From assembly GCF_900185595.1 (NCBI RefSeq), contig NZ_FYBH01000061.1:1-51111 (forward strand): 51,111 bases of DNA, given 5' to 3'. The notes under the pieces were generated by a model. The model was given only the letters and a program-made list of their open reading frames with translations. It did not search any database and was not told where the DNA came from. Shown in pieces: positions 4,921 through 31,136 of this stretch (position 1 is the stretch's first letter; every line of letters begins with the position of its first letter). The position numbers were made by a program, and so were the translations under genes. The DNA comes from Calothrix rhizosoleniae SC01. GTDB taxonomy: Bacteria; Cyanobacteriota; Cyanobacteriia; Cyanobacteriales; Nostocaceae.

Positions 4921-6230
4921 CGAAACTAATGGGATACAAGCCCCGTCCTTCTAGGACAGCTTTGTTTATGTTATACTAATTGCCGTAGAAGTTTTCCACG
5001 TCAAATGGTCGTTTTCGAGTTTAAGGCAAAAGGGAAAACAACTCAATATGCAGCTATCAACGAAGCGATCAAAACTGCTCAATTTGTCCGCAACAAGTGC
5101 ATTCGTTTTTGGATGGATAACCCAGGTGTAGGGCAGAAACAGCTATATCGCTACAACACTGTGTTAAGAGCCCAATACTCCTTCGTAAAAGACTTAAACT
5201 CTCATGCCTGTCAGGTAGGAGTAGAAAGAGCATATAGCTCTATAGCTAGGTTCTACCACAATTGCAAAAAACAAATCTCTGGTAAAAAGGGATATCCCAA
5301 GTTCAAGAAAAATAACCGTTCGCTGGAATACAAGACCTCTGGGTGGAAACTATCAGAAACGAGAAAACAGATAACCTTCACAGACAAAAAGGGAATTGGC
5401 AAACTTAATCTCAAAGGAACGTGGGATTTAAACTTCTACCCATTAGAACAGATAAAACGGGTTAGGTTAGTCCGTCGTGCTGATGGATACTATGTTCAAT
5501 TTCTTATAAGTGTAGAGAATAAAATAGAAGCACAACCAACGGGCAAAACTATAGGTTTGGACGTTGGGCTGAAACAGTTCTATACAGACAGTAATGGATA
5601 TAGTGAACCTAACCCAAGATTTTATCGCACAGGAGAAAAGCGTCTGAAGTTGCGACAAAGACGTGTTTATCGCAAGAAAAAAGGCTCTATCAACCGGAAA
5701 AAAGCTATTAATAGATTAGGTCGAGTACACCTGAAAATAAGTAGGCAACGTGAAGAACACGCCAAAACAGTGGCGCGTTGCGTAATCCAATCTCACGATT
5801 TGGTAGCCTATGAAGATTTGAGGATTAAAAATTTAGTTAAAAATCATTGTCTTGCTAAGTCTATTAATGATGCTGGTTGGTATCAATTCAGAAAATGGTT
5901 AGAGTATTTTGGGGTGAAGTTTGGTAGGGTAACTGTTGCAGTCAATCCTGCCTACACATCCCAAGAATGCTCTAACTGTGGGGCAGTAGTCAAAAAATCT
6001 CTATCCACAAGAACCCATATTTGTAAATGTGGATTTGTGCTGGATCGAGACTGGAATGCTGCTATTAATATTCTCAAATTAGCCTTGAGTACGGTAGGGC
6101 ATACCGGAACTTGGATCAACGATCCCAACGCTTCAGGAGATTCTACCTCTACTTGTGCTGGAGAAATCCTGCATGAGCAAGTTGGGTCTATGAATGAAGA
6201 ATCTTCGCCCTTGTAGGGTACAGAGTGTCA
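4921..6230 (+). mobile_element. IS200/IS605-family element with tnpB only
   Basis: The left end begins CGAAACTAATGGG directly after TTGAC (4916-4920) and contains the subterminal hairpin CCCCGTCCTTCTAGGACAG. The right end has a decayed hairpin around CGCCCTTGTAGGG and finishes GAGTGTCA at 6230. The same left-end motif and the same GAGTGTCA terminus occur in the deletion derivative at 13351-13654, which supports these boundaries. No tnpA (Y1 transposase) is present, so movement would need one supplied in trans. TTGAC is a plausible transposon-adjacent motif. Confidence 0.8.
5005..6216 (+). CDS. tnpB: TnpB, RNA-guided RuvC-like nuclease of an IS605-type element
   Basis: This is an intact 403-residue TnpB/OrfB, the usual length. 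An N-terminal helix-turn-helix (OrfB_IS605) part is followed by a split RuvC fold. The presumed catalytic residues are D186 (IGLDVGL), E270 (AYEDLRIKNL) and D349 (DRDWNAAINI). A zinc-finger-like block CSNCG...CKCG lies between the last two. In characterised elements TnpB cuts DNA guided by an RNA made from the element's right end. Here that RNA would overlap the end of tnpB and run past 6230. The gene is not degraded, so it may be functional, but without tnpA it depends on another element for transposition. Confidence 0.95.
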   Translation: MVVFEFKAKGKTTQYAAINEAIKTAQFVRNKCIRFWMDNPGVGQKQLYRYNTVLRAQYSFVKDLNSHACQVGVERAYSSIARFYHNCKKQISGKKGYPKFKKNNRSLEYKTSGWKLSETRKQITFTDKKGIGKLNLKGTWDLNFYPLEQIKRVRLVRRADGYYVQFLISVENKIEAQPTGKTIGLDVGLKQFYTDSNGYSEPNPRFYRTGEKRLKLRQRRVYRKKKGSINRKKAINRLGRVHLKISRQREEHAKTVARCVIQSHDLVAYEDLRIKNLVKNHCLAKSINDAGWYQFRKWLEYFGVKFGRVTVAVNPAYTSQECSNCGAVVKKSLSTRTHICKCGFVLDRDWNAAINILKLALSTVGHTGTWINDPNASGDSTSTCAGEILHEQVGSMNEESSPL

Positions 6231-6250
6231 ATTTACAATATTTTTCATCC
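6120..6250 (+). ncRNA. Predicted right-end guide RNA (omegaRNA/reRNA) of the tnpB element
   Basis: This is inferred by analogy. TnpB elements make a guide RNA from the 3' end of tnpB through the right end, and the roughly 16-20 nt beyond the element serve as guide. Here the scaffold would end GAGTGTCA (6223-6230), with the guide starting at 6231. The hairpin at 6204-6223 has mismatches. The 5' limit given is approximate. Confidence 0.4.
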
Positions 6251-6273
6251 CACCCACGCCCCATTAAGCGATC

Positions 6274-6290
6274 GGCGTTGCTGAATTCAG
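6274..6290. repeat. Solo copy of a GGCGTTGCTGAATT inverted-repeat end
   Basis: GGCGTTGCTGAATTCAG matches the outer end of the small inverted-repeat element at 35751-35858. No partner end is visible nearby, so I read it as a remnant left by a deleted element. Confidence 0.45.
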
Positions 6291-6313
6291 CCTGTTTTTT
6301 GGCTTTGCACCTA

Positions 6314-6344
6314 TTGATAATTTATAGTATACTTGTACTATAAA
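6314..6344 (+). promoter_or_regulatory. Promoter with LexA-like box upstream of the KTSC gene
   Basis: The perfect inverted repeat TTTATAGTA-6 nt-TACTATAAA covers 6321-6344. Its centre AGTATACTTGTACT (6326-6339) fits the Anabaena-type LexA consensus RGTACNNNDGTWCB with one mismatch. A -35-like TTGATA (6314-6319) and -10-like TATAAA (6339-6344) are 19 bp apart, and the -10 begins on the last base of the box. The same layout occurs at 9505-9533. Confidence 0.45.
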
Positions 6345-6409
6345 TTAAATATTTAAACTCAAAATCTTCATAGGTATTTAGTCAATTCGGTAACGGGAGA
6401 GCATGACTG

Positions 6410-6817
6410 ATGAAGCTATCTAGGTTGTATTTAAGTAATATTGTGGCGATCGCTCATTCTGGGGAATACTTACAATTGCTGATAGATAGGGGGAATGAAT
6501 TGGAATTGTTGGAAATTCCTGCACCAGTGGAAGCTTACGAAGGATTAGAGGAATTAAATCAGATTGTTACAGATTCCCTGGCATTACCTACAATAGACGA
6601 AGCGATCGCAATGTTGCCAGTGGAATCATCTATGGCAAATGCTGTAGGTTATGACAGTGATGAAGAAGTCTTACAAGTCGAGTTTAATAATGGAGCCATA
6701 TACCAGTATCAAGATGTTGATGATCAGATATGGGATGGCTTGTACAAAACTGACTCCATTGGTAAATTCTTTAACAGTAAAATTAGGGGAAAATACCAAT
6801 ACCAGCGCCTTGATTAG
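6410..6817 (+). CDS. KTSC-domain protein
   Basis: A 135-residue protein. The C-terminal part (about 75-132) is a KTSC domain, recognised by the VGYDSDEEVLQVEF strand, the central YxY motif (IYQYQDV) and the KTDSIGKFFN segment. The domain is named from lysyl-tRNA synthetases and is only suggested to bind nucleic acid. The N-terminal 70 residues (MKLSRLYLSNIVAIAHSGEY...) form a second small domain I do not recognise. The ATG at 6410 is used because an upstream in-frame alternative is absent and the ATG at 6403 runs into a stop. The promoter carries a LexA-like palindrome, so damage-responsive expression is possible. It converges with pheT. Confidence 0.85.
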   Translation: MKLSRLYLSNIVAIAHSGEYLQLLIDRGNELELLEIPAPVEAYEGLEELNQIVTDSLALPTIDEAIAMLPVESSMANAVGYDSDEEVLQVEFNNGAIYQYQDVDDQIWDGLYKTDSIGKFFNSKIRGKYQYQRLD

Positions 6818-6899
6818 GAGTTAGAAGTTAGGAGTTAGGAGTTAGGGATTTTGTATTCCATCCCTCCATCACTCCATCACTCCATCACTCCTCTTCTCC
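6818..6899. repeat. Short tandem repeats between convergent genes
   Basis: GGAGTTAGGAGTTA-type units are followed by several copies of the octamer CACTCCAT. This is the short tandem repeat sequence typical of filamentous cyanobacteria. No gene or clear terminator is seen. Confidence 0.6.
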
Positions 6900-9335
6900 C
6901 TAGCTTCTGAGACTAACACCAAATTTCTCTACCAAAGCTTCCCGGACTTTATCATGTACGGTTTCCACCTCCTTATCCTTAAGGGTGCGATCGCTGGCTC
7001 GATAAATGAGGCGAAATGCTAAACTACGCTGTCCTGAGGGTACATTTTCACCACGGTATTCATCAAACAATTCCACTGAATCCAGCAAACTTTTACCTGC
7101 TTTATTAATGGCTTTTTGAATTTCAGCAACGGTAACATCCACAGGTGCAAAGAAGGCAATATCGCGGTCTGATGCAGGATAGGTTGAGTAAGATTTGAAT
7201 GTGGGAATCAGAATTTCATCTTCATCTAAGGCATCTAATAATACATCTAAATCCAGTTGAAATACATAGACTGAATCCGGCAAGTCTTTATCTTTTCGTA
7301 ATTGGGGATGTAATTGCCCGAATACTCCCAGTTTATTACCTCCCACCCATAAGGAAGCAGTACGTCCTGGATGGAGGCGGTTATCTTGGCGATCTGGTTG
7401 GTATTCAACTTGCAAACCCATTTGGCTAAATACACTTTCTAAAATGCCTTTAGCTGCAAACCAATCCATTGGTTGTTCTCTACCACTGTTATGCCAATGG
7501 CTAGAGGTAATGTCACCTCCGATGATTCCCGCCACTGCATCGGCTTCTTGTAATCCTTCTTCTTGCCAAAAAATCCGGCCAATTTCAAAGCCATTTAAGG
7601 AGCCATTTCCCTGCTCCAAGTTGTATTGAAAAGCATCAATCAATCCAGAAATTAAATCAGTTCTCAGGGCAGAATATTCGGTGAATAGAGGATTGCTGAG
7701 CTGTATTTGGTTATTTTCTCCTGGTTTGACTAAGGAGTAATGCATTAATTCTGTTAACCCTTCTGCTCGGAAACTAGCTCGCAATTTGCGGGTTAATTCT
7801 TGGTCAAGGGGTAAATAACCAGCTTCAGATTTTTCGGGGAGAGTATCACTAAAGCGATCGTAACCGTAAAGGCGAGCAATTTCTTCAATTAAGTCAATTT
7901 CCCGTTCTAAGTCAAGATAGCGGTAGGGGGGAACTGTCACCGTCCAATTTTTATCCTCTGTAGGTGTTAGTTGACACCCCAAGGCAGTGAGAATACCTTC
8001 CACATCTGCGCTTTCTAACTCACCCATCTCATCATTACCAAGTTCCACAGGGCCCAGAACTTGATTCACCCGCTCTAAACGCAATTCGATGGAACGAGTC
8101 CAAGTTGCTGGATCGGGACGACTATCAGCTTTCTCTTGGGTAATAATTTTACCACCAGCTAATTCGGTAATTAAGGAGAGGGCGCGGCGACAAGCGATTT
8201 CCAAGCCAACACTATTTACACCCCGTTCGTATCTCCCAGAAGATTCACTTCTCAAACCAACACTGCGGGAAGAACGGCGAATGGCAACGGAATCAAACAA
8301 AGCTGCTTCTAAGACGATGTTTTCAGTTCCAGAATGGACTTCTGTTTCTGCTCCTCCCATTACACCTGCCAAAGCCACAGGTTTCTCATTAGCAGTAATT
8401 AGTAAGTTTTGAGTAGCTAGGTTACGGGTTTGTCCATCCAGAGTTTTCAAAGTTTCCTCGGCATAGGCAAAGCGAACCCCAATAGTTAGTTTTTCACCAC
8501 CAGTCACAGACTGCAAGCGGTCACCATCAAAGGCGTGGAGTGGTTGTCCCCATTCCAACAATATATAGTTAGTAATATCAACAATATTATTAATGGGACG
8601 CATTCCCGCACTGTGCAATCGCTGTTGCAACCAGTCGGGGGAGGGAGCAATTTTTATACCTGCAACTACTGTACCGAAATAGGCCGGACAAGCTTGGGAT
8701 TCACTAATTTTTAAAGTTAAATTACCTACACCTTGGGGTAAGGAAATAGTATCAACTTCGGGAATACTTAACTTTCCACCAGTCAGGGCGGCGACTTCCC
8801 TTGCTACTCCGACCATACTCAAAGCATCAGCACGATTAGCAGTAGAAGTTAAATCTAGAATAATATCATCCAAACCCAAGAAGGGGCGAACATCACTACC
8901 TAATTGTAAATTTTCTTGGTTGAAAATATGAATACCATTAATATCCGTGGGTAAACCTAGTTCTTTTAAGGAGCAAATCATGCCATTAGAAGGTTCACCA
9001 CGGAGCTTGGTGGGCTTAATTTTTAAATCAATATTGGGGAGGTATGTACCAACGGTTGCCACGGGTACATAAATATCTGCACATACATTTGATGCACCAC
9101 AAACAATGTTTAAAGGTTCTCCCTTACCAATATCAACTTGGCAAACACTTAACTTGTCAGCATTAGGGTGGGGTTGGCGTTCTACTACCTTTCCTATGAC
9201 CACACCATCTGCCCAAGTGCGGCGATCTTCAATTTCTTCGACCTCAAACCCAGCCATGGTGAGGGTTTCGGCTAATTCTTCAGGGCTAAGTTTAATTTCG
9301 ACTAGTTCCCGCAGCCAATTTAGAGAAATACGCAT
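6900..9335 (-). CDS. pheT: Phenylalanine--tRNA ligase beta subunit
   Basis: PheT, 811 residues, the usual size for the beta chain of the alpha2-beta2 enzyme that charges tRNA-Phe in the cytosol. It starts [14 protein letters not shown]. The N-terminal tRNA-binding (EMAP/OB) domain contains [20 protein letters not shown] at about residues 45-64. B3/B4 editing-domain and B5 segments follow, with [20 protein letters not shown] and the GRYERGV block. The core domain runs from about 450 to 690, and the C-terminal FDX-ACB anticodon-binding domain covers roughly the last 95 residues ([11 protein letters not shown]...). No gene for the alpha chain is nearby, which is common in cyanobacteria. Several minor frames opposite it are shadows. 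Confidence 0.98.
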
Positions 9336-19063: not shown

Positions 19064-20041
19064 TTATTGCTGTTTAGTTTTTACTGGTTGATTTGCTGAT
19101 TTTGCTTTAGTTTTTGCAGCTTTTTTCTTGCGTGCTTCTGCTAATTTGAGTGCCTTGTCCTCAACTTCTAAAAGCTCGGGGATAGTTACAAATTTATAAC
19201 CTTGCTGCTTTAATTTTTGAATGATGGGCACTAAAGATGCCACTGTATTGGAACGATTACCGCCACCATCATGTAATAAGATAATACCACCCGGTGTTGC
19301 TTGTTTCACTACCTTATTAACTAAAGTTGGCACAGGAGGACGCCTATAATCATTAGAATCAGCAGACCACATGACTACAGTATAGTTTTTCTTTTTGGCA
19401 TAAGCAGCTAAACCGTTGTGTAATATTCCTCCTGGAGGACGGAATAAAGTAGTTTTTGCTCCTGTTATTTTATAAATTAAATCTGAACTGCGATTAATCT
19501 CATTAGCAGCAGTTTGGGGGTTATGGCGATGATACCAGTGATGCCAAGTATGGTTGGCAATTGTATGACCATCATCCACAATTCGTCTTCCTAAGTCAGC
19601 ATTCCTTTGGAGTACCTGAGCAAGCACAAAAAATGTTGCTTTAACCTCATGTTTCTCTAAAATATCTAGTATCTGCTCAGTATAAATATTCCAAGGACCA
19701 TCATCAAAAGTCAAAGCAATCACCTTTTTCCCTTTCGGAACTTTTGCTTGATTAATGGTTACTCCTCGAAACCGTGGTGGTATTTTGTAGGATAGACCCT
19801 TCTCTATTGCCTGCTTTTGCCAAGTATTAAGCATGGCTGACCGAAATTTCTCAATCCGCTTTTGACTTTTGGCTTTAGGGATGGAATTTTCGTTACTAAT
19901 ATTTTTTGCGTTTTTGTTACCAGTTCTGTTACCAAAAACGGTTGAGCTGACAGGTATCATTAAGCCCAAACCTAAGATAATACCCAATGTTACTAGGGCA
20001 ATTAATGTAGCTTTTGACCAAATAAATTTATCACGTTCCAC
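19064..20041 (-). CDS. Polysaccharide deacetylase (NodB domain), membrane-anchored
   Basis: A 325-residue type II-anchored CE4 enzyme. The N-terminal hydrophobic segment at about residues 12-33 (LIALVTLGIILGLGLMIPV) is followed by a linker and a NodB domain. Motif 1 is ALTFDDGPW (about 118-126), motif 2 is ANHTWHHW (zinc histidines), motif 3 is FRPPGG, and motif 5 is IILLHDGGG. It should remove N-acetyl groups from a wall or exopolysaccharide in the periplasm. The C-terminus is Lys/Ala-rich. The start is GTG at 20041, with AAGGAG at 20049-20054, seven bases away. It is transcribed divergently from the glycan cluster that begins at 20435, so it may modify that glycan; this is inference. Confidence 0.93.
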   Translation of the reverse strand: MERDKFIWSKATLIALVTLGIILGLGLMIPVSSTVFGNRTGNKNAKNISNENSIPKAKSQKRIEKFRSAMLNTWQKQAIEKGLSYKIPPRFRGVTINQAKVPKGKKVIALTFDDGPWNIYTEQILDILEKHEVKATFFVLAQVLQRNADLGRRIVDDGHTIANHTWHHWYHRHNPQTAANEINRSSDLIYKITGAKTTLFRPPGGILHNGLAAYAKKKNYTVVMWSADSNDYRRPPVPTLVNKVVKQATPGGIILLHDGGGNRSNTVASLVPIIQKLKQQGYKFVTIPELLEVEDKALKLAEARKKKAAKTKAKSANQPVKTKQQ

Positions 20042-20434: not shown

Positions 20435-21406
20435 ATGACAAAATTAATTATCCAAATTCCTTGTTACAACGAGGAAAATTCACTCTCAATCGCACTATCT
20501 GCTTTACCTCGCCAATTGCCTGGTATTGACACTTTGGAATGGTTAATTATTAATGATGGTAGTCATGATAGGACTGTTGAGGTAGCGAAAGCTTGTGGTG
20601 TAGACCATATTGTTCATTTACCTAGAAATCAGGGGCTTGCTAAAGCTTTTATGGCTGGTTTAGAGGCTTCTTTGGCAGCTGGAGCAGATATTATAGTTAA
20701 TACTGATGCTGATAATCAGTATTGTGCGGATGATATTCCCAAGTTGATAGAGCCAATTCTTCGAGAACAAGCAGATATAGTGATTGGTGCTAGACCAATT
20801 TGGAAAACCAAGCATTTTTCCCTGATAAAAAAACTGTTGCAAAAACTTGGTAGTTTGGTTGTCCGGATTGCCAGTAACACAGATATTCCTGATGCACCCA
20901 GTGGTTTTCGGGCTTTCAGCCGGGAAGCTGCTTTACAAATGAATGTATTTAATAATTATACCTATACCCTGGAAACTATAATTCAAGCTGGGCAAAAGGG
21001 CATGACAGTTATCTCTGTACCCATTCGGACTAATGGTGTTTTACGCCCTTCACGCTTAGTAAAAAGTAACACTGCCTATGTAGTGCGATCGCTATTTACA
21101 ATTCTCCGCATTTTCATGCTGTATAAGCCACTACGCTTCTTTTTAGCTTTGGGTAGTGTGCCGTTTACTATGGGGGTGATATTGGGGATACGCTGGTTAA
21201 TTTTCTTCTTTCTGGGTACGGAACGGACTCGTATACCTAGCTTAATTTTGACTGCCATTTTAATTTTAATTGGTTTTCAATTGTGGATGTTCGGTTTGGT
21301 GGCAGATTTAATGGCAGCTAATCGCCGACTTTTAGAAGATACACAACTGCGAATGCGCCGTCTGTCAGCTGATGCAGCTAGTAAGAGTGGGGGAGTGAGG
21401 GAGTGA
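20435..21406 (+). CDS. GT2 glycosyltransferase, polyprenyl-phosphate-sugar synthase-like
   Basis: A 323-residue DPM1/GtrB-like family 2 glycosyltransferase. The GT-A start is LIIQIPCYNEENSL, then INDGSHDRT (about 39-47) and the DxD site at D91/D93 (NTDADNQY). APSGFRAFSREA and a basic amphipathic stretch lead into two C-terminal membrane segments at about 230-260 and 270-292. Such enzymes transfer a sugar from a nucleotide donor to polyprenyl phosphate on the cytoplasmic face. The ATG at 20435 is used rather than GTG 20432 because AGGAG ends at 20430. The last residues (SGGVRE) are encoded by a GGAGTGAG tandem repeat. It is the first gene of the glycan cluster. Confidence 0.92.
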   Translation: MTKLIIQIPCYNEENSLSIALSALPRQLPGIDTLEWLIINDGSHDRTVEVAKACGVDHIVHLPRNQGLAKAFMAGLEASLAAGADIIVNTDADNQYCADDIPKLIEPILREQADIVIGARPIWKTKHFSLIKKLLQKLGSLVVRIASNTDIPDAPSGFRAFSREAALQMNVFNNYTYTLETIIQAGQKGMTVISVPIRTNGVLRPSRLVKSNTAYVVRSLFTILRIFMLYKPLRFFLALGSVPFTMGVILGIRWLIFFFLGTERTRIPSLILTAILILIGFQLWMFGLVADLMAANRRLLEDTQLRMRRLSADAASKSGGVRE

Positions 21407-21465
21407 GGGAGTGGAGGAGTGTGGGAAGTGTGGGAGGTGTGGGGAGTGTGGGAAGTTAGAATTTT
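21398..21465. repeat. GGAGTGAGGGAGTG / TGTGGGAAG tandem repeats
   Basis: Short G-rich tandem repeats start inside the last codons of the GT2 gene and continue into the spacer. The repeat supplies the end of the reading frame. Confidence 0.6.
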
Positions 21466-21568
21466 TTAATTTTTTCCTTCCATCGCCCTATTAAACTCAT
21501 CATCCCATTATCATAATCCAGACTTTATACTTCCTATTTTCAATACAAAAGAATTGTAACTCCCGATA

Positions 21569-23164
21569 ATGACAAGTAAAAACCTGTTCGCCCGTGAAGC
21601 ATTAGCCCAGATTCCCAAAATTCTTACTTTGCTGGATCGAAATCCCCATAGCCCTACCTATGGCTGCTTTGATCGCAATTTCTGGCACTACAAAATCATT
21701 GATTTTCCCAGTGGCATGGCACAGGAATTTGTTTGGCCCCTAGCTTTGGTTTATGATACCGATGTGCCAGATAATCCCTTCTACCACCAAGCAGTCATGA
21801 GGGATTGGGTAGAAGCTGGAATTCTCTATTCTCTCCGTAGTGCTCACCGTGATGGTTCCTGTGATGATTATTTCCCCTATGAAAGGGCATCAGGGGCAGC
21901 AGCTTTTTCCCTCTTAGCTTGTCTCGAAAGTTACATATTACTGCAACTGCAAAATCAAGAGATGGTGGATTTTTTTATCCGGCGAGCTGACTGGTTGGCA
22001 AATCACCATGAAAGCGGACAGTTAACTAACCATCAAGCCCTAATTGTTCTGTGTTTGTCACGTTTATCTCAACTAGTACAAACTAGCAAATGGGATAAAG
22101 CAAAGGTACAACGTTTGGAACGGGTTTTGTCTTGGCAAAGTTCAGAGGGCTGGTTTCAAGAATATGAGGGTTGCGATCCTGGTTATCATACATTGAGTAT
22201 TTCCTGTTTAGCCCGGATTTACCAACTCAACCCTGATATACGGTTAAAGGAAGCGTTGATTAAAGCGGTAGAATTAGCCGCAGAATTCGTCCATGCCGAT
22301 GGTTCCTATGGTGGAGAATATACTAGTCGTAACACCTATAATTTTTTTCCCCACGGGTTTGAATTGGTGGGACGTTGGATGCCAGAATCCCTACAAATTA
22401 ATGATAGATTTTTACAAGGTTTGGCAAATGGATTGGGTTCATGCTATGGCGATGACCATATAATTGGACACCATACTTGGAATTATTTATTGGCTTGGCG
22501 GGATTTTGTCCCTAATCGTTCCCCAATAGCTCCCCGCTCTCATGGTCGTATTTGGCTAAAAAAAGCCAAAATATTGATAGACCGCCGGGAAAATACAGAA
22601 TTATATTTGGCACTCAATAAAGGTGGGGTTTTCAAGTTATTTCGCCATAATCAATTAATTGCTGCGGATACGCAAATTTCCCTCCAGGTACAACAAAAGG
22701 GTACAGTAAAAAATGCGATCGCTCACTTAATTGGCTCTTATCAAGTCAATGTCAGCGACGATATAATTACTATCTCTGGAGAATTAGGCTGGGCAAAACA
22801 AAAACAAATGACCCCATTGAATTTACTGATTTTGCGAATTGTCATGCTCAGTGGAGGACGTTTCTTTCCCAACTTGATTCGTAAGCTTTTGCAAAGTATC
22901 CTAATTACGGGTAAAAAAAATGCTCCATTTCAGTTTGAGCGCCAGTTGTCCTGGGAAAATGGTCAATGGCACATTACTGATAAAATATATGCCCAGTCTT
23001 GGCATAATGTTATTGCTGCGGGAATTGGCTGTGATCAAACTTCAATTTATGTTGTCATGAGTCGCACATTCCAAATCGGTCAATTACAACCTTGGCTAAA
23101 CTTGACTGATGAAATCAAAAAACTTGCTCCCCATCAGCCATTAGAAATCAAGCGCATAGTATAG
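21569..23164 (+). CDS. Predicted toroid plus beta-sandwich protein, heparinase-like architecture, unknown substrate
   Basis: A 531-residue soluble protein that I do not recognise by sequence. Residues 1-320 look like an alpha/alpha toroid: repeated helical pairs with aromatic and acidic residues, including FGMAQEFVWP-like GMAQEFVWPLALVYD, DDYFPYERASGAAAFS, WFQEYEGCDPGYHTLS and GSYGGEYTSRNTYNFFPHGF. Residues about 325-531 look beta-rich. This two-part layout is that of heparinase II/III-like lyases and uronyl epimerases, so a glycan-acting enzyme or glycan-binding protein is my inference. No signal peptide is seen, which is odd for a lyase. It lies within the cluster, and the stop is followed one base later by the next ATG, so it is translationally linked to the flippase gene. 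Confidence 0.7.
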   Translation: MTSKNLFAREALAQIPKILTLLDRNPHSPTYGCFDRNFWHYKIIDFPSGMAQEFVWPLALVYDTDVPDNPFYHQAVMRDWVEAGILYSLRSAHRDGSCDDYFPYERASGAAAFSLLACLESYILLQLQNQEMVDFFIRRADWLANHHESGQLTNHQALIVLCLSRLSQLVQTSKWDKAKVQRLERVLSWQSSEGWFQEYEGCDPGYHTLSISCLARIYQLNPDIRLKEALIKAVELAAEFVHADGSYGGEYTSRNTYNFFPHGFELVGRWMPESLQINDRFLQGLANGLGSCYGDDHIIGHHTWNYLLAWRDFVPNRSPIAPRSHGRIWLKKAKILIDRRENTELYLALNKGGVFKLFRHNQLIAADTQISLQVQQKGTVKNAIAHLIGSYQVNVSDDIITISGELGWAKQKQMTPLNLLILRIVMLSGGRFFPNLIRKLLQSILITGKKNAPFQFERQLSWENGQWHITDKIYAQSWHNVIAAGIGCDQTSIYVVMSRTFQIGQLQPWLNLTDEIKKLAPHQPLEIKRIV

Positions 23165-23165
23165 A

Positions 23166-24137
23166 ATGAAAAAATTCATTTCTATTGTTGTTAGTCTTGT
23201 CATTCTAACAATAATTTACTGGAAAATTGACTTTCCCAAACTAGTAGAGGTATTCCAAAATTGCGATCGCTTGTGGATGGTAATCAGTCTACTAATGGTA
23301 TTCCCTCTGACAATGCTTGCAGCTTGGCGTTTGCAACAGCTGATGCCTAGTGGTAATCGCTTGGGATTTGGTGAAGCGAATCGGTTAATTTTGGCGGCTA
23401 GTGTCCTGAATATGGTACTACCATCAAAAATGGGCGATATTGCTAAAGCTTATTTTATGAAAGAAAAGGGACATTTACATGGCTTACTTTCACTATCTTT
23501 GGTAGTGTTTGAAAAAGCCTGTGATATGCTTTCTCTTCTGCTATGGTGTGCCTTTGGATTAATTCTTTACCCCCAAAAAGATTGGTTGTTTTGGGTAATG
23601 ACAACTGTGGTAGTTTTTGGACTAATAATTGGCATACTGCTGCTTACTTCCCTTAAATTTACCCATTTATTTTTTAAGTTATCTCAGAAAATTTTATCCG
23701 CAAAATTCCGCCCTAAAATTAACAAATTACGTCTTTCATGGGAGGAAATGCATAAATATTTTTGGCAAGATAATTATAGTCTTTTCAAGATAGCTGGTAT
23801 TTCCATTTTTATCTGGTTTGGGCACCTATTACAAATTTGGTTTTTTATCTTGGCACTCAAAGCTTGGGCACCTTTTTTAGCTCATTTGGCACTATCGCCC
23901 CTGGCAATTTTAGCTGGTTTACTACCTCTGACTTTTGCCGGAGTTGGGACTCGTGATGCAGCCTTAATCGCATTTTATCAGCCGTACTTTCATGCTCCTA
24001 CTGCTGCTGCTTTGGGACTACTTTGCACTTGTAGATATCTCTTACCAGCCATTGGTGGACTACCTTTTCTGGGACAATATCTGACTGCTATTAAGAATAT
24101 ACGTGGAAAGCAGAAAGAGCTTAACAATAATAGTTAG
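23166..24137 (+). CDS. Flippase-like membrane protein, UPF0104/AglD2 type (copy A)
   Basis: A 323-residue multi-pass protein with about 7-8 hydrophobic segments, of the lysylphosphatidylglycerol-synthase-TM/UPF0104 type. Recognisable blocks are WRLQQLMP, GFGEANRLILAASVLNMVLPSKMGDIAKAY (in two parts) with the conserved LPSKMGD, FEKACDMLSLL, and PLTFAGVGTRDAALI near residue 255. Members are proposed to flip or position lipid-linked sugars. It starts one base after the previous stop. Copy B at 27560 is clearly paralogous, with many identical blocks, so the module was duplicated. Confidence 0.88.
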   Translation: MKKFISIVVSLVILTIIYWKIDFPKLVEVFQNCDRLWMVISLLMVFPLTMLAAWRLQQLMPSGNRLGFGEANRLILAASVLNMVLPSKMGDIAKAYFMKEKGHLHGLLSLSLVVFEKACDMLSLLLWCAFGLILYPQKDWLFWVMTTVVVFGLIIGILLLTSLKFTHLFFKLSQKILSAKFRPKINKLRLSWEEMHKYFWQDNYSLFKIAGISIFIWFGHLLQIWFFILALKAWAPFLAHLALSPLAILAGLLPLTFAGVGTRDAALIAFYQPYFHAPTAAALGLLCTCRYLLPAIGGLPFLGQYLTAIKNIRGKQKELNNNS

Positions 24138-24147
24138 CGAATAAAAT

Positions 24148-25716
24148 ATGTTGCACCATCCTCATCTCAATCAATATCGCCCCCCAAAAAAATATTGGTT
24201 GATGTCTGATTTACTGGCATTTATGATTCTTTCTTTTGGAATCTGTGTCAGACTTATTCAATATATCTCTAATCGTTCTTTATGGGCTGATGAGGCAACA
24301 TTGGCATTAAATATAGTCAATCGTTCTTATTCACAATTATTACAACCTTTAGATTACGGACAAGGTGCTCCCATTGGATTTTTGATGGGAGAAAAATTAG
24401 CAGTTCAAGTATTTGGCAACAATGAATATGCCTTAAGATTATTTCCTCTTGTATCTGGAATATTGGCTTTATTTCTATTTTACCAATTAGCAAAAATATA
24501 TTTGCAAAAATGGGCAATTCCTATAGCTTTAATTCTTTTTGTAAGTTTACCTAAATTAATTTACTATTCCACTGAGTTAAAACAGTATTCATCTGATGTA
24601 ACTACGGCGTTAATCTTGTGTTTGTTATTAATACAAATAGGGGAAAATAAAATTGGCAATCTGCAAATATTTACTTTGTCTATAGTAGGTAGCATGGCCA
24701 TATGGTTTTCCCATCCATCTATTCTGATTTTAGCAGGTTTGGGAATAAGTTACTTCATAATTGGTATTAAAAATGGGCTTAAAAAAAATATATTTAAAGT
24801 TGGGTTTATATACTTAAGTTGGTTTATTAGTTTTGCTATATTTTATTATGTTTCTCTGAATAATTTAAGTAGCAATACTGAACTATTAAAATCTTGGCAA
24901 AATGCTTTTCCTTCATCGATTTTTAATATTATTTGGCTGTTTGATGCATTCGGTAAATTTTTCTATGATCCCTTAGGATTTTTGGGAAAAACTGATGGGC
25001 TAGCAATTCTTATCTTCGTAATAGGCTGTATTTCATTATTTATTCGTAGAAAAGAAATTTTATTTATTTTGATTTCACCAGTTTTAGCTACTTTTTTGGC
25101 AACATACTTACATAAATATCCCTTTCGCGGTCGATTGGTATTATTCTTGACTCCTTTAATAATTTTAATAATTGCTGAAGGTACATATTATATTCTGAAA
25201 AAATCTCGTTCAAAACTCAGGTTAATCCTAAGTACCACCCTGTTACTATTCTTGATTATACCTCCATTATATAATGCTAGTAATCTGATAGTAATGCCAC
25301 AATTAAAAGAAGAAATTAAGCCAGTTATTAGTTATATTAAAGAACGGCAACAACCTGGAGATATATTATATATTTACCAAAGAGGAAAATATCAATTTAA
25401 ATACTATGCAAAAAAATATGGTTATCAAGAAGGAGATTATATTATTGGAGTTGACGATTTAGATAAATATGATGGTTCTAATCTGTCAAATGAGGAGCGG
25501 GAAAGATATGAGAAAGACTTAGATCAGTTGATGGGGAATAAAAGGGTCTGGCTACTTTTCTCTCATGCAAATATTAACAGTGAGAATGAAATGATGAAAT
25601 CTTCTCTAGAACGTAGAGGTAAAAAAATAGATTTTTTTGCGAGAAAAGGTGCATTTGTTTACTTATATGATTTGACTGGATATAAAGCTACGAATGTTAA
25701 TAATACAATCTTTTAA
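24148..25716 (+). CDS. GT-C membrane glycosyltransferase, ArnT/PMT_2-like (GT39)
   Basis: A 522-residue protein with about 11 hydrophobic segments and a soluble C-terminal tail. The acidic pair D48/E49 in SLWADEATLA lies in the first outer loop, as in ArnT and other dolichol/undecaprenyl-phosphate-sugar-dependent GT-C enzymes. GQGAPIGFLMGEKL and NEYALRLFPLVSGILALFL are the usual following blocks. It should use a polyprenyl-phosphate sugar on the periplasmic side. It lies 10 nt after flippase copy A and 14 nt before the next gene, so it belongs to the same operon. The acceptor is unknown. Confidence 0.88.
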   Translation: MLHHPHLNQYRPPKKYWLMSDLLAFMILSFGICVRLIQYISNRSLWADEATLALNIVNRSYSQLLQPLDYGQGAPIGFLMGEKLAVQVFGNNEYALRLFPLVSGILALFLFYQLAKIYLQKWAIPIALILFVSLPKLIYYSTELKQYSSDVTTALILCLLLIQIGENKIGNLQIFTLSIVGSMAIWFSHPSILILAGLGISYFIIGIKNGLKKNIFKVGFIYLSWFISFAIFYYVSLNNLSSNTELLKSWQNAFPSSIFNIIWLFDAFGKFFYDPLGFLGKTDGLAILIFVIGCISLFIRRKEILFILISPVLATFLATYLHKYPFRGRLVLFLTPLIILIIAEGTYYILKKSRSKLRLILSTTLLLFLIIPPLYNASNLIVMPQLKEEIKPVISYIKERQQPGDILYIYQRGKYQFKYYAKKYGYQEGDYIIGVDDLDKYDGSNLSNEERERYEKDLDQLMGNKRVWLLFSHANINSENEMMKSSLERRGKKIDFFARKGAFVYLYDLTGYKATNVNNTIF

Positions 25717-25730
25717 TTGAATATAATCGT

Positions 25731-27500
25731 ATGATAGATATCCATCGTAAATCTGTATCTACTACCTCATCTAATTCGCCTAAATCTCACATAATTTTTT
25801 GGCTTAGTCTGAGCTTGTTATTCGCAGCTATTTATAGTTATTTAGCACTACAACAAGCATTTAGTAGCGAATATGTTGTCCAGGATGATGCGCGACAACA
25901 TGTATTTTGGATGCTGCGATTTTTAGATCCAAACTTGTTTCCCAATGATTTGATTGCCAATTATTTTCAATCAGTAGCTCCTGCGGGATACTCTAGTCTT
26001 TACCATTTGCTAGCATCCATAGGAATTAATCCATTGTTATTCAATAAAATTTTGCCATCCATCATGGCATTAATTACCACTGGATACTGTTTTGGTATTT
26101 GCCTACAAATTTTACCAATTCCATTTACTGGATTTATAGCAATAGTAATGCTAAATCAAAATTTGTGGGTTAAAGATGACTTAGTTTCTGCTACACCTAG
26201 AGCTTTTGTATACCCTTTATTCTTCGCATTTTTGTACTATTTGTTGCGTCGTTCTTTGTTTTTTTGTTTAATTGCGATCGCACTTTTAGGAGTATTTTAT
26301 CCTCAGATGGTGTTTATCTGTGCTGGTATCTTAGTTCTGCGATTGTGGACATGGGAGAGAGGAAAGTTGCAGTTTTCTCGCAAACGTCATGATTATTTGT
26401 TCTGTGCTACTGGGGTGGGAGTAGGAATATTAGTATTGTTACCCTATGCTCTAAAATCATCGGCATTTGGACCAGTAATTACTTTAGCTCAAGCCAGACA
26501 ATTACCTGAATTTTTCGCTGGTGGGCGTTCTCAATTTTTTAATGGGAATCCCTGGTACTATTTTTTAGGTGGACGTAGTGGTATATTTCCGATATTTTTT
26601 TGGACACCAATTACCCTTTTTAGTTCTTTTTTGTTACCGATACTATTACTGATCCGTCCTCGTTTTCCTGTATTGAGGAAAATAACTAGAGAAATTGGGC
26701 TATTGTTGCAGATTTTATTGGCATCTTTTTTCATGTTTTTTGCAGCCCATATCTTACTATTTAAGCTGCATCTTCCTAACCGCTACACTGGACATAGCTT
26801 GAGAATTATTGTGGCTATATCTGCCGCAATTGTATTAACTACAATTATCGATGCTGTGTTATCAACTAGCTTTGTAAAAAACAGAATTTATGGCTATATA
26901 CAAAAAATATTTGTCTTAGTTTTTACATTTTCTCTCACTATTTTATTACTATTTTATTACCCATTATTGTTAAACAAATTTCCCAAAACAGCTTATAAAA
27001 TTGGTCGTTTTCCATTATTATATGAATTTGTGCAAAAACAACCAAAAGATACCCTAATTGCTTCTATTGCAGAAGAAAGTAATAATTTACCAACCTTCTC
27101 CCAGCGTTCCATTTTAGTAGGTAGAGAATATGCAATTCCTTACCACCTTGGTTATTACAATAAATTTCGTCAGCGAATTATAGATTTACTTCAGGCTCAT
27201 TACAGTCCTAATTTAGAAGATGTCACTAAATTAATTAATAAATATGATATAGATTTATGGATGTTGGAATCTGGAGTATTTACGGCAGACTATATCAAAA
27301 ATAATAGATGGCTAAAGCAATATCTTTCTAGTAAATTGACTGGGGATGAATTAGTTAAATTAACCAATGATATTGTTCAAAGCTTGGAGCAAGGAAATAT
27401 CCCAGCTTTATCAAAGGTGGTGCCCAGTTGTACTGTGGCTGAAATCCAAAATTACTTGATGCTAGATGCAAAATGTATATCTAAAACAAGTGAGAATTGA
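25731..27500 (+). CDS. Multi-pass membrane protein with QDDARQH motif (copy A), GT-C-like
   Basis: A 589-residue protein with about 11-12 hydrophobic segments. D52/D53 in VVQDDARQHVFWM sit just after the first membrane segment, where GT-C glycosyltransferases carry their catalytic acidic pair. The layout, length and C-terminal soluble region (about 430-589, with TFSQRSILVGREYAIPYH) also fit a GT-C enzyme. I do not recognise a named family. It lies between the GT39-like gene and flippase copy B. Copy B of this protein is at 28627, and the two share long identical blocks. Confidence 0.8.
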   Translation: MIDIHRKSVSTTSSNSPKSHIIFWLSLSLLFAAIYSYLALQQAFSSEYVVQDDARQHVFWMLRFLDPNLFPNDLIANYFQSVAPAGYSSLYHLLASIGINPLLFNKILPSIMALITTGYCFGICLQILPIPFTGFIAIVMLNQNLWVKDDLVSATPRAFVYPLFFAFLYYLLRRSLFFCLIAIALLGVFYPQMVFICAGILVLRLWTWERGKLQFSRKRHDYLFCATGVGVGILVLLPYALKSSAFGPVITLAQARQLPEFFAGGRSQFFNGNPWYYFLGGRSGIFPIFFWTPITLFSSFLLPILLLIRPRFPVLRKITREIGLLLQILLASFFMFFAAHILLFKLHLPNRYTGHSLRIIVAISAAIVLTTIIDAVLSTSFVKNRIYGYIQKIFVLVFTFSLTILLLFYYPLLLNKFPKTAYKIGRFPLLYEFVQKQPKDTLIASIAEESNNLPTFSQRSILVGREYAIPYHLGYYNKFRQRIIDLLQAHYSPNLEDVTKLINKYDIDLWMLESGVFTADYIKNNRWLKQYLSSKLTGDELVKLTNDIVQSLEQGNIPALSKVVPSCTVAEIQNYLMLDAKCISKTSEN

Positions 27501-27559
27501 TAATTTTTTCTATCCCAAATATCTGATTCCAAATAACTGCACTAGTTTTATGTATTCAT

Positions 27560-28525
27560 ATGAAAAAAGTCATTTCTATTATCATTAGTCCGATATTATT
27601 GGCAGTCATCTACTCAAAAATTGATTTTTTTCAGCTAGTGCAAGTGCTTGAAGATAGCCATAAATGGTGGATAATAATTAGTTTAAGCATGGTTATACCC
27701 TTAGCGATGCTAACAGCTTGGCGGTTACAACAGCTAATGCCAACAGCGAGCTTGGGATTTGGTGAAGCTAATCGCTTAATTTTATCAGCTAGCGTGCTGA
27801 ATATGATTTTACCTTCAAAAATGGGGGATATAGCTAAGGCTTATTTTATTCAAGATAAGCAGTATTTAAATGGTTCCCTTTCTCTATCTTTGGTCATTTT
27901 TGAAAAAATTTGCGACTTACTATCAATACTACTGTGGTGTGCCTTCGGATTAATTCTCTACCCCCAAAAAGGGTGTTTTTTTTTAACAATTCTCACTAGT
28001 GTGATATTTGGCATATTAATTGGATTTTTTGTGCTTTGCTCTGATAAATTTGCCAAGTTATTTTTTCATATTATCAGTTTTTTCGCTTTTTATAAATTTA
28101 AAAAAACACTAAAAAGAATGCACTCTTCTTGGCAAGAGATGCATAATTATTTTTGGCATAATAAAATTATTTTTTTGAGAACTATAGCCATTTCCATATT
28201 TATTTCCTTTGGGCATTTTTTGCAAATTTGGCTTTTTATTCTTGCTCTCAATGCTTGGACTCCTTTTTTAAATCATATCGCCCTATGTCCATTAGCCATT
28301 TTGGCGGGACTAATACCACTTACTTTTGCGGGGATAGGTACTCGTGATGCTGCTTTTATAGCCTTGTATCAACCATATTTACATGCTCCTACTGCTGCTG
28401 CATTAGGTTTACTCTGTACTTCTCGCTATTTACTCCTAGCAATTGGAGGTATACCTTTTTTAGGACAATATTTATCAGCGATGGGGAAAAAACGCGGATT
28501 TCTCTCAAAAAACAGACATTGGTAG
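27560..28525 (+). CDS. Flippase-like membrane protein, UPF0104/AglD2 type (copy B)
   Basis: A 321-residue paralogue of the protein at 23166, identical over WRLQQLMP, LGFGEANRLIL, LPSKMGDIAKAYF, LLWCAFGLILYPQK and FLQIWLFILALNAW-like blocks, with the same number of membrane segments. The central loop (about 150-190) is the most different, with poly-T/F-rich codons. It follows the QDDARQH copy A by 59 nt and precedes copy B by 101 nt. Proposed role as for copy A; both are retained intact, suggesting separate use. Confidence 0.88.
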   Translation: MKKVISIIISPILLAVIYSKIDFFQLVQVLEDSHKWWIIISLSMVIPLAMLTAWRLQQLMPTASLGFGEANRLILSASVLNMILPSKMGDIAKAYFIQDKQYLNGSLSLSLVIFEKICDLLSILLWCAFGLILYPQKGCFFLTILTSVIFGILIGFFVLCSDKFAKLFFHIISFFAFYKFKKTLKRMHSSWQEMHNYFWHNKIIFLRTIAISIFISFGHFLQIWLFILALNAWTPFLNHIALCPLAILAGLIPLTFAGIGTRDAAFIALYQPYLHAPTAAALGLLCTSRYLLLAIGGIPFLGQYLSAMGKKRGFLSKNRHW

Positions 28526-28626
28526 CTCAAACTATTGTACAATAAAACACTCCATTTAGGCATAATTTATTGCTCTTTATACCCCCATCTCTGCTGTGAT
28601 ATTTACCAAAAAATCAACATATATAT

Positions 28627-30405
28627 ATGTTTACTAATCAAATCCACAGATTATTAATTGCTCCAAATGGCAAATCATCTCGTTGGCAGATGATTTTTTG
28701 GTTTAGCTTAAGCATGGCTGTCTCTATTATTTATGGATTTTTAGCATTACAAAAAGCTTTCAGTGCTGAATATGTTATGCAAGATGATGCACGGCAACAT
28801 GTATTTTGGATGCTAAGATTTGTGGATGAAAACTTATTCCCGAATGACTTGATTGCGGATTATTTTCAATCAGTAGCTCCCCTAGGTTACTCAAGTCTTT
28901 ATCATTCTCTAGCAAATTTGGGAGTCCATCCATTACTATTTAATAAAATCTTACCATCCATATTAGGATTGCTAACAACTGGTTATTGTTTTGGTGTTTG
29001 TCTACAAATTTTACCCATTCCTATTGCCGGGTTTATGGCAACTGTGATGCTAAATCAAAATTTGTGGATGAAGGATGATTTAGCTTCTGGAACCGCAAGA
29101 GGATTTGTATATTTTTTATTTTTAGCATTTTTGTACTATTTATTGCGTAAATCTTTGTTGCCTTGCTTAGTAACAATTGTATTATTAGGAATATTTTATC
29201 CCCAGTGTGTATTTATCAGTGTTGGTATTTTAATACTCCGAATATGTGACTGGCAAACAGGAAATTTTCGTTTGTCACGCCAACGACATAATTATATTTT
29301 CTGCGTAGTGGGGACGGGGGTAGCATTTTCAGTCATGTTAATTTATGCTCTCAAATCTTCTGACTTTGCGCCAGTAATCACCGTGGCTCAAGCAAAGCAA
29401 TTGCCAGAATTATTGTCAGGGGGACGCTCCGCTTTCTTTTTTGATAATCCCTTTATCCATTATCTTGGTGATACTCGTGGCGGTATCTTTTCACCGTGGC
29501 TGTTCTCACCTATAACCCTTTGTTTCGCTTTTTTTCTACCTCGGCTATGGCAATTTCGCGCTAAATATCCCTTACTTGGGCAGTTAACTGAGGAAATTGT
29601 CATTTTACCGCAGATATTAATAATATCAATGGGAATGTTTATTATTGCCCATGTCCTGTTATTTAGACTTTATCTTCCTAGTCGATATATTGGTTACAGT
29701 TTCCGAATTGTTTTAGCTTTATCATCTGCAATTGTATTAACTACAATTTTGGATACTGTGTTATCAAATAATTTTTTCAGAGGTAGAGTAAACCCTCTCC
29801 CACGCAAGTTTTTTGCCTTAAGTTTCACAGCACTGCTTGCCATTTCATTGTTATTTTATTATCCTGTTTTTATTAAAAAATTTCCTAAGCCTACTTATGT
29901 TACAGGTGGTTTTCCCCAGTTATATCAGTTTTTTCAAAAACAACCAAAAGATACCCTAATTGCTTCTCTAGATCGGGAAGTTGACAATTTACCTACATTT
30001 TCTCAACGTTCAATTTTAGCGGGACGAGAATACGCTATTCCTTGGCATTTTGGTTACTATAGTAAGTTTCGCCAGAGAACTAGGGACTTGATTCAAGCTG
30101 AGTATAGTCCCAACTTAGCTGATGTGAAAAATATGATGCAAAAGTATGGTGTGAATTTCTGGTTGTTGAGGAATGACACATTTACCCCAGATTACATCAA
30201 AAAGAATAAATGGCTGAAGCAATACCTGGTAAGTAAGTTAAAGGAGGATGAACTTGTCAAATTAACTAATAATATTTTTCAAGATTTGCAAAAAGGAAGT
30301 GTACCAGCTTTATCAAAGATGATACCTAATTGTACTGCGATAGGAGTTCAAAATTACGTGGTGCTAGATGCAAAATGTATTGCTAATATCGATGAAAATT
30401 CATAA
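28627..30405 (+). CDS. Multi-pass membrane protein with QDDARQH motif (copy B), GT-C-like
   Basis: A 592-residue paralogue of the protein at 25731. D53/D54 lie in VMQDDARQHVFWM; the NLFPNDLIADYFQSVAP, LPSILGLLTTGYCFG and AGREYAIPWHFGYYSKFRQR blocks are shared. It is the last gene of the cluster. The spacing of 101 nt before it may allow a separate promoter. Proposed as a lipid-linked-sugar-dependent transferase by topology only. Confidence 0.8.
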   Translation: MFTNQIHRLLIAPNGKSSRWQMIFWFSLSMAVSIIYGFLALQKAFSAEYVMQDDARQHVFWMLRFVDENLFPNDLIADYFQSVAPLGYSSLYHSLANLGVHPLLFNKILPSILGLLTTGYCFGVCLQILPIPIAGFMATVMLNQNLWMKDDLASGTARGFVYFLFLAFLYYLLRKSLLPCLVTIVLLGIFYPQCVFISVGILILRICDWQTGNFRLSRQRHNYIFCVVGTGVAFSVMLIYALKSSDFAPVITVAQAKQLPELLSGGRSAFFFDNPFIHYLGDTRGGIFSPWLFSPITLCFAFFLPRLWQFRAKYPLLGQLTEEIVILPQILIISMGMFIIAHVLLFRLYLPSRYIGYSFRIVLALSSAIVLTTILDTVLSNNFFRGRVNPLPRKFFALSFTALLAISLLFYYPVFIKKFPKPTYVTGGFPQLYQFFQKQPKDTLIASLDREVDNLPTFSQRSILAGREYAIPWHFGYYSKFRQRTRDLIQAEYSPNLADVKNMMQKYGVNFWLLRNDTFTPDYIKKNKWLKQYLVSKLKEDELVKLTNNIFQDLQKGSVPALSKMIPNCTAIGVQNYVVLDAKCIANIDENS

Positions 30406-30659: not shown

Positions 30660-31136
30660 TTAAGCTTTGTTTAACTTGGCGTAACCAAAAGTAACATTAA
30701 ATCGCTGACACCAAATCGCAACGGATTTATAATTATTCAAGTTTACATTGTCAGGAATTGCATAACGCTGGGCACCATTGAAGCTTTTTAAAGCAGACAA
30801 GGTAATGTAATCTCTAGCTCGCAATTTCACGGGTACAGTATTTCTACGATGCAGAACAACCTTAACCTTGGGACCACTAGCAGTAGTAAAACCTCGGTTA
30901 AACTCCAGATAGCGTTTACCATTGATGTTAACAATCTTAGCTATACCTTTCGTGGGATGGTCTTGTTCTGTAGTCACAAAGCTACCAGAGGCTAGTAGTG
31001 AACTGGGTTTAGCTGCAACAGTAGTTTGTGTTGATTTAATTGCTTGGGCTGGTTGTGCATTAATTGCGAATTGTCCAACGCCACCGAATAAAAGAACTGA
31101 TGCGATTGTGGAAGCCGCTAATTTGTTAAGTTTCAT
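30660..31136 (-). CDS. Exported DM13-domain protein
   Basis: A 158-residue protein with a signal peptide (MKLNKLAASTIASVLLFGGVGQF, cleavage near the AQA at residues 30-32) and a C-terminal DM13 domain from about residue 48. The domain shows GSFVTTEQDHPTKGIAKI, LEFNRGFTTASGPKVKVVL, AQRYAIPDNVNLNNYKSVAIWC and RFNVTFGYAKL. The conserved cysteine of the WCQRFNVTFG motif is present; DM13 has been proposed to act in redox or electron transfer, without proof in cyanobacteria. It should be periplasmic. It is monocistronic on the minus strand. Confidence 0.9.
   Translation of the reverse strand: MKLNKLAASTIASVLLFGGVGQFAINAQPAQAIKSTQTTVAAKPSSLLASGSFVTTEQDHPTKGIAKIVNINGKRYLEFNRGFTTASGPKVKVVLHRRNTVPVKLRARDYITLSALKSFNGAQRYAIPDNVNLNNYKSVAIWCQRFNVTFGYAKLNKA

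Follow-up and report, generated by a model that had tools for sequence, protein, structure and literature searches.

What could a row of seven genes accomplish in which recognizable glycosylation enzymes stand beside proteins of no known family? The row lies on the plus strand in the cyanobacterium Calothrix rhizosoleniae SC01, at positions 20,435 to 30,405 of contig NZ_FYBH01000061.1, whose first 51,111 nucleotides are referred to as the window. It encodes, in order, a family 2 glycosyltransferase (GT2), a toroid-like protein (TOR), a flippase-like protein (FLA), a GT-C-type glycosyltransferase (GTC), a protein with a QDDARQH motif (QDA), and second copies of the flippase-like protein (FLB) and the QDDARQH protein (QDB). 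The two pairs are designated FL and QD. An initial annotation had read the genes as a complete lipid-linked sugar route with two parallel acceptor branches, partnered with a divergent CE4 deacetylase. Sequence comparisons and structure models point to a real, conserved glycosylation cassette with a predicted, undescribed GT-C family. With a probability of about 0.62, the row encodes an extracytoplasmic glycosylation system of the three-component type that includes this family. The cluster was not found described in the open-licence PMC literature, judged by titles and the starts of abstracts.

QDA, QDB, and TOR have no match in Pfam or NCBIfam up to an E value of 0.1, and phmmer and profile searches returned no meaningful sequence relative of QD in the PDB. 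A structure model of QDA was built from an alignment of 88 QD proteins, which also underlies the residue counts given below. The model has a predicted local distance difference test score (pLDDT) of 93.3 and a predicted template modeling score of 0.91. In Foldseek, GT-C enzymes rank first (CeDPY19, 1.9e-7; then OST-A, PglB, and AglB). In VIA-align, the highest-Z rows listed are likewise GT-C enzymes, with STT3/AglB/PglB chains at Z 18.7–22.6; the best chain is STT3 (8age_A, Z 22.6) with 474 aligned residues at 5.0 Å. The Z scores for individual enzymes are 20.6 for PglB, 19.4 for Pmt4, 18.4 for AftA, 17.1 for ALG12, 16.6 for CeDPY19, and 16.4 for ArnT. The GT-C fold spans residues 11–588, and the C-terminal extracytoplasmic dome alone aligns with the C-terminal domain of AglB (Z 9.5, 125 residues, 2.9 Å). 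The initial annotation had tied its reading to a GT-C fold in these proteins, and the comparison with GT-C structures bears this out.

Eleven transmembrane (TM) segments, an odd number, are read by eye from the model. The loops assigned inside contain 12 K/R and 1 D/E, and those assigned outside 29 K/R and 27 D/E. The consulted part of PMC6801728 gives four loop patterns as characteristic of GT-C enzymes, and all four are present in QD together with the odd TM number. The first external loop (EL1), following TM1, carries an aspartate pair, D52 (86/88) and D53 (88/88). EL2 contains N142 (85/88), Q143 (83/88), D149 (75/88), D150 (79/88), and R157 (73/88), which are conserved without any being invariant. 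Y190 (88/88), P191 (87/88), and Q192 (72/88) lie in EL3, and R351 in the last external loop is found in 88/88. The outer side, whose ranges were set after viewing the model and cover 60% of the protein, holds 28 of the 31 invariant positions. QDB equals QDA at all 14 conserved positions compared.

The WWDYG motif is a signature of the C-terminal domain of STT3/PglB. Neither WWD nor WW occurs in any of the 88 QD domes, and EL5, the large external loop, has no invariant acid, the best acidic column being position 260 (74/88). PF02516, the family of STT3, AglB, and PglB (GT66), is unmatched by QDA and QDB up to E 0.1. In its predicted structure, QD shares the overall fold and the dome with these enzymes and differs from them in lacking the PF02516 match, the WWDYG motif, and the invariant EL5 acid, and in having 11 rather than 13 TM helices. 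Profile comparison with hhalign gave a probability of 3.4% for QD against a PMT_2 group (f2), 0.6% against DUF6798, and 0.3% against GTC; the TOR control gave 0.3%, and DUF6798 against GTC gave 1.2%. A likeness seen by eye between the N terminus of QD and the DUF6798 group had no support from hhalign and was dropped. By its full-length fold, QD is predicted to be an undescribed GT-C family that is nearest to the oligosaccharyltransferases (OSTs) and lacks the sequence hallmarks of STT3.

A charging glycosyltransferase, a flippase, and GT-C enzymes, as judged by family and fold only, are encoded together in the row. GT2 has near full-length PDB matches to DPMS (5mlz, 3.2e-17), ArnC, and the cyanobacterial GtrB sll0501. 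It contains the DxD residues D91/D93 and exceeds the cut-off of no NCBIfam model. By homology, it is a predicted polyprenyl-phosphate sugar synthase of the DPM1/GtrB/ArnC type, in agreement with the initial annotation. The PF13231 score of GTC is marginal (26.2 bits, cut-off 26.1), and its EL1 residues D48 and E49 are kept in 8/8 rows. The PDB searches gave no meaningful sequence relatives for TOR, FLA, and GTC either; the single row for GTC, at E 0.12, is a reaction-centre chain. FLA and FLB match PF03706 with 119.9 and 115.5 bits (gathering score 33.4), and both also exceed the cut-off for TIGR00374. In the literature consulted in part, translocation evidence within this UPF0104/MprF-type family was met only for MprF, with phospholipids. 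FLA and FLB are putative lipid flippases by family, a reading adopted because of MprF and an archaeal analysis, of which part was consulted (PMC5898192).

In the proposed mechanism, GT2 would load one sugar onto polyprenyl phosphate at the cytoplasmic side, FL would move the charged lipid across to the outer leaflet, and GTC, of PMT_2 type, and QD would transfer the sugar to an acceptor outside. The likely catalytic acids of QD would be the EL1 pair D52 and D53. TOR might work in the cytoplasm with GT2 and the flippase, perhaps by modifying the sugar, which is speculative. The duplicated FL and QD would constitute a second flippase–transferase pair. The type of GT2, the fold of QD, the conservation, and the duplication agree with a lipid-linked route, but the completeness of the route and its two acceptor branches, both part of the earlier claim, were left unproved. 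If the proposal is correct, a family would be added to the GT-C enzymes, its founding assay still lacking; bacterial UPF0104 proteins would gain a link to the transfer of polyprenyl-linked sugars, as predicted for archaea; and four genes would be available as a testable cassette for glycans of the cyanobacterial cell surface. A more far-reaching version is doubtful: QD would be a new, largely cyanobacterial GT-C family for OST-like protein or glycolipid glycosylation with dedicated UPF0104 flippases, TOR, as a novel enzyme, would remodel the lipid-linked sugar before flipping, and the GT2-TOR-FL-QD cassette would move between phyla.

The row resembles several known systems. The consulted part of PMC11127046 describes three-component systems (GT136, pentofuranose) with exporters of MATE or SMR type. 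Like these Gtr/GT136 systems, the row co-encodes a polyprenyl-phosphate-charging glycosyltransferase, a membrane mover, and a GT-C enzyme acting outside. It differs in three respects: the flippase is UPF0104 and not of the GtrA/SMR or MATE kind, the GT-C family is undescribed and frequently present in multiple copies, and a toroid protein is added. In archaea, according to the sections consulted of PMC5898192, UPF0104 (arCOG00899) is found near an AglD-like glycosyltransferase and arCOG00563, which is distantly related to PMT/STT3, and a second context comprises a polysaccharide deacetylase and a glycosyltransferase. This predicted neighborhood parallels the row in placing UPF0104 beside a glycosyltransferase and a PMT/STT3-like enzyme, with a deacetylase in the second context; unlike the row, it is archaeal, and the same sections make no mention of a toroid protein. 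The polyprenyl-phosphate aminoarabinose pathway has a GT2 of the ArnC kind and an enzyme, ArnT, whose fold the GT-C enzymes of the row share, but the row implies no lipid A acceptor and its flippase is from another family.

The gene order was also compared across genomes. A scan of genome contigs gave 238 stretches with relatives of QD, of which the best 80 were kept, corresponding to 77 loci, all in cyanobacterial records. Together with the window and 40 fetched regions, 118 stretches were examined, including at least four repeats of scanned loci (L147, L148, L150, and L164). Genes were counted as consecutive along one strand, with opposite-strand genes skipped. GT2-TOR is consecutive in 12 stretches, TOR-FL in 14, GT2-TOR-FL in 8, TOR-FL-GTC in 4, and FL-QD in 20 (18 after removal of L147 and L148). 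The 28 distinct TOR rows include 12 with GT2 and 14 with FL no more than 300 nt away; 10 of the 28 have QD at a distance of up to 3 kb. A partner (FL, TOR, GT2, another GT-C, or another QD) is present within 6 kb in 78 of 128 distinct QD rows, and in 44 of the 74 with full 6-kb flanks. A shared family was also sought in 116 immediate neighbors of QD, drawn from 125 of 126 unassigned neighbors (the remaining one is truncated where its contig stops). Nine of the 125 were excluded for length or as near copies, five of them being scanned apart. No common family emerged: the most frequent, Uma2, has 8 occurrences.

In a sample of 292 cyanobacterial genomes, QD is found in 36 (26 of 116 genera), although two of these have nothing more than short weak matches. 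TOR is found in 23 genomes of 18 genera. The two occur together in 19 genomes (Fisher p 1.9e-16, uncorrected for kinship). Up to seven QD matches are found per genome, several of them pieces of one gene; by place, there are at most four genes.

The neighborhood, whose absence from related genomes would have refuted the initial reading, is thus conserved, and it is kept in a second phylum as well. In a plasmid collection, QD is present in three records and TOR in one. The megaplasmid NZ_CP104967.1 of Phyllobacterium sp. A18/5-2 carries GT2-TOR-FL-QD in that order on one strand, spaced by 29 nt at one junction and overlapping slightly at the other two, with identities of 56% for GT2, 47% for TOR, 39% for FL, and 32% for QD. 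The G+C content of this row is 55.5%, versus 56.2% in the fetched stretch. No other single argument for a joint action of the four genes is as strong as this shared order. The Phyllobacterium QD keeps DDAR, one of the two EL2 aspartates, the EL2 arginine, YPQ, and RY, and lacks H57 and H340. Its gene (L173, 8289–10038) lies in two frames, with the dome in the other frame, which is either real or a sequence error.

The remaining two plasmid records, from Planktothrix agardhii (L174, AP017993.1; L175, NZ_LR882937.1; both 5935–9287), contain a QD gene followed by a GT-C gene, annotated as glycosyltransferase family 39 in the L175 record. The pair is flanked by glycosyltransferase and polyketide synthase genes. 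The Planktothrix QD (39% identity) keeps D52, D53, both EL2 aspartates, R157, (F/Y)PQ, and RY. The polyketide synthase context gives a hint that the product may be a lipid or polyketide carrying a sugar. Relatives of QD or TOR were not found in viral contigs.

The acceptor bears on two other explanations. QD could be a new OST-like family that moves lipid-linked glycans to proteins, occupying the place of PglB/STT3 in cyanobacteria. The OST catalytic subunits are indeed the top structural matches of QDA, dome included, and PF02516 is matched in only 9 of the 292 cyanobacterial genomes, above the cut-off in 3, and not at all in the genome of the window. As a control, PF02516 was matched in 4 of 14 genomes, all four archaea; we know of no PglB-bearing bacterium among the 14. 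The missing WWD and WW and the variable acid of EL5 argue against such a role, as does the monosaccharide donor suggested by GT2, and the dome core is reported as common to several GT-C enzymes in the part consulted of PMC10154233. An OST-like function is unlikely. Another possibility is that the row decorates a lipid, either a glycolipid or one of polyketide origin, and that neither a polysaccharide nor a protein is its target. The two Planktothrix plasmids, with their polyketide synthase regions, speak for this, as does gpgSDF: in the excerpt consulted of PMC12713373, a UPF0104 gene adjoins those of a glycolipid synthase and a deacetylase, and its product is a predicted glycolipid flippase whose activity is unverified there. 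Against it, the row in the window is flanked by CE4 and DM13 genes, and the 25 most frequent of the 221 families found in the 116 immediate neighbors of QD include no polyketide synthase. A lipid product is improbable.

In a third explanation, FL and QD would be unrelated membrane proteins with transport or structural roles, and their gene order would be a chance legacy of lineage. No characterized sequence homolog of QD was found, and many QD genes stand alone. The GT-C enzymes at the top of the structural matches and the four-gene order shared with an alphaproteobacterial plasmid make this explanation very improbable. Several points nevertheless weigh against a three-component glycosylation system. 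A link at the sequence level between QD and any GT-C family was not found in the profile comparisons, and likeness of fold to GT-C enzymes shows no activity. In the portions consulted of the cited literature, flipping is unproven for stand-alone UPF0104 proteins. The frame-broken Phyllobacterium copy of QD may be dead. In addition, 30 of the 74 QD genes with full flanks have no counted partner, and 4 of the 23 genomes with TOR lack QD.

The FL and QD pairs are clear paralogs, as had been proposed. QDA and QDB share 62% amino acid identity; at the DNA level, identity between the two copies is about 71% for FL and likewise for QD. In the trees, FLB groups with the FL proteins of two Calothrix congeners (L040 and L041) with support of 100/98. 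QDB groups with the QD proteins of the congeners at 90/93, below the level starred by the tool, and at 100/98 once L042 and L045 are added. FLA and QDA lie outside the congener groups. A duplication within the lineage of the window, with the A and B copies as sisters, is rejected by the AU test (p 0.0029 for FL and 0.0052 for QD). The trees therefore show that the duplication of FL and QD predates the split of the genus; the second flippase–transferase pair may have a separate function. The branch of FLB is long (0.76). Perfectly matched histories of FL and QD are contradicted by L045, whose QD belongs to the QDB group but whose FL does not group with FLB. The two congeners carry CE4-GT2-FL-QD with a single FL-QD pair and have no match to TOR or GTC. 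The A set may have been lost in the congeners or gained in the lineage of the window.

The toroid-like character of TOR, noted earlier, is extended by a model of moderate quality (pLDDT 67, built from 8 rows) that predicts an (α/α) toroid and a β-sandwich. The first ten Foldseek matches of this model include xanthan lyase (best, 4.7e-6), PL33, chondroitin AC lyase, and heparinase III. In VIA, TOR aligns on the toroid with an uncharacterized exported protein at Z 17.1, and mostly on the toroid with cellobiose 2-epimerases and unsaturated glucuronyl hydrolases at Z of about 15 to 16. The architecture predicted by this moderate model is that of PL8, PL33, and heparinase III; unlike these, TOR matches no family and shows no obvious signal peptide by eye. 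Only two weakly hydrophobic stretches are seen, which suggests a soluble protein with a cytoplasmic location. TOR is, speculatively, a sugar-active protein resembling polysaccharide lyases or epimerases. The initial annotation gave it no role, though it is a frequent neighbor of GT2 and FL.

TOR also occurs in other settings. In three genomes of one genus (L140, L141, and L145), it lies beside a likely GT-C family (f36, without a Pfam match in the single member scanned), and GT2, FL, and QD are absent from the stretch. Divergent copies with 27–29% identity are found at L045 (5299–8596) and L144 (6944–10103), each after an extra gene, which in L045 encodes an FrhB/FdhB-type protein.

The proposed partnership with CE4 was unproved. 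The protein itself is well assigned (PF01522, 122.7 bits, gathering score 23.1), but its family is found in 9 of the 118 stretches, mostly from close relatives, and two of the nine (L147 and L148) merely duplicate L040 and L041, fetched a second time. TOR is the more frequent neighbor of GT2 and FL. CE4 is divergent from the operon, and its membership is uncertain.

Features of the row and the divergent gene upstream (window coordinates).
Feature	Coordinates	Strand	Evidence
CE4 polysaccharide deacetylase, N-terminal hydrophobic stretch	19064..20041	-	PF01522 E 1.2e-35; hydrophobic stretch 13-31
GT2, predicted polyprenyl-phosphate sugar synthase, two C-terminal TM helices	20435..21406	+	PF00535; hydrophobic 234-252 and 271-289
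TOR, 531 aa, predicted (α/α) toroid and β-sandwich	21569..23164	+	fold model, Foldseek, VIA
FLA, UPF0104/PF03706 flippase-like protein, copy A	23166..24137	+	PF03706 2e-34; TIGR00374 68.1 bits
GTC, PMT_2-type GT-C glycosyltransferase, W46-x-D48-E49	24148..25716	+	PF13231
QDA, undescribed protein of predicted GT-C fold, C-terminal extracytoplasmic dome	25731..27500	+	structure model
FLB, UPF0104/PF03706 flippase-like protein, copy B	27560..28525	+	PF03706 4.4e-33
QDB, second QD protein	28627..30405	+	62% protein identity to QDA

Gene order, strands, gaps, and the acidic residues of GT2 and GTC are all as first annotated. The seven plus-strand reading frames and the divergent CE4 frame are open throughout, and the plus-strand gaps from GT2 to QDB are 162, 1, 10, 14, 59, and 101 nt. 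Promoter-like sites (46, against 44.6 in shuffles) and terminator-like sites (6, against 8.2) are not above the shuffled level. The next gene after the row, on the minus strand at 30660–31136, encodes a DM13-domain protein, with no link to the operon seen. Both GTG 20432 and ATG 20435 are possible start codons of GT2. The assembly comprises 5.97 Mb in 472 contigs and contains two QD genes, both in the row.

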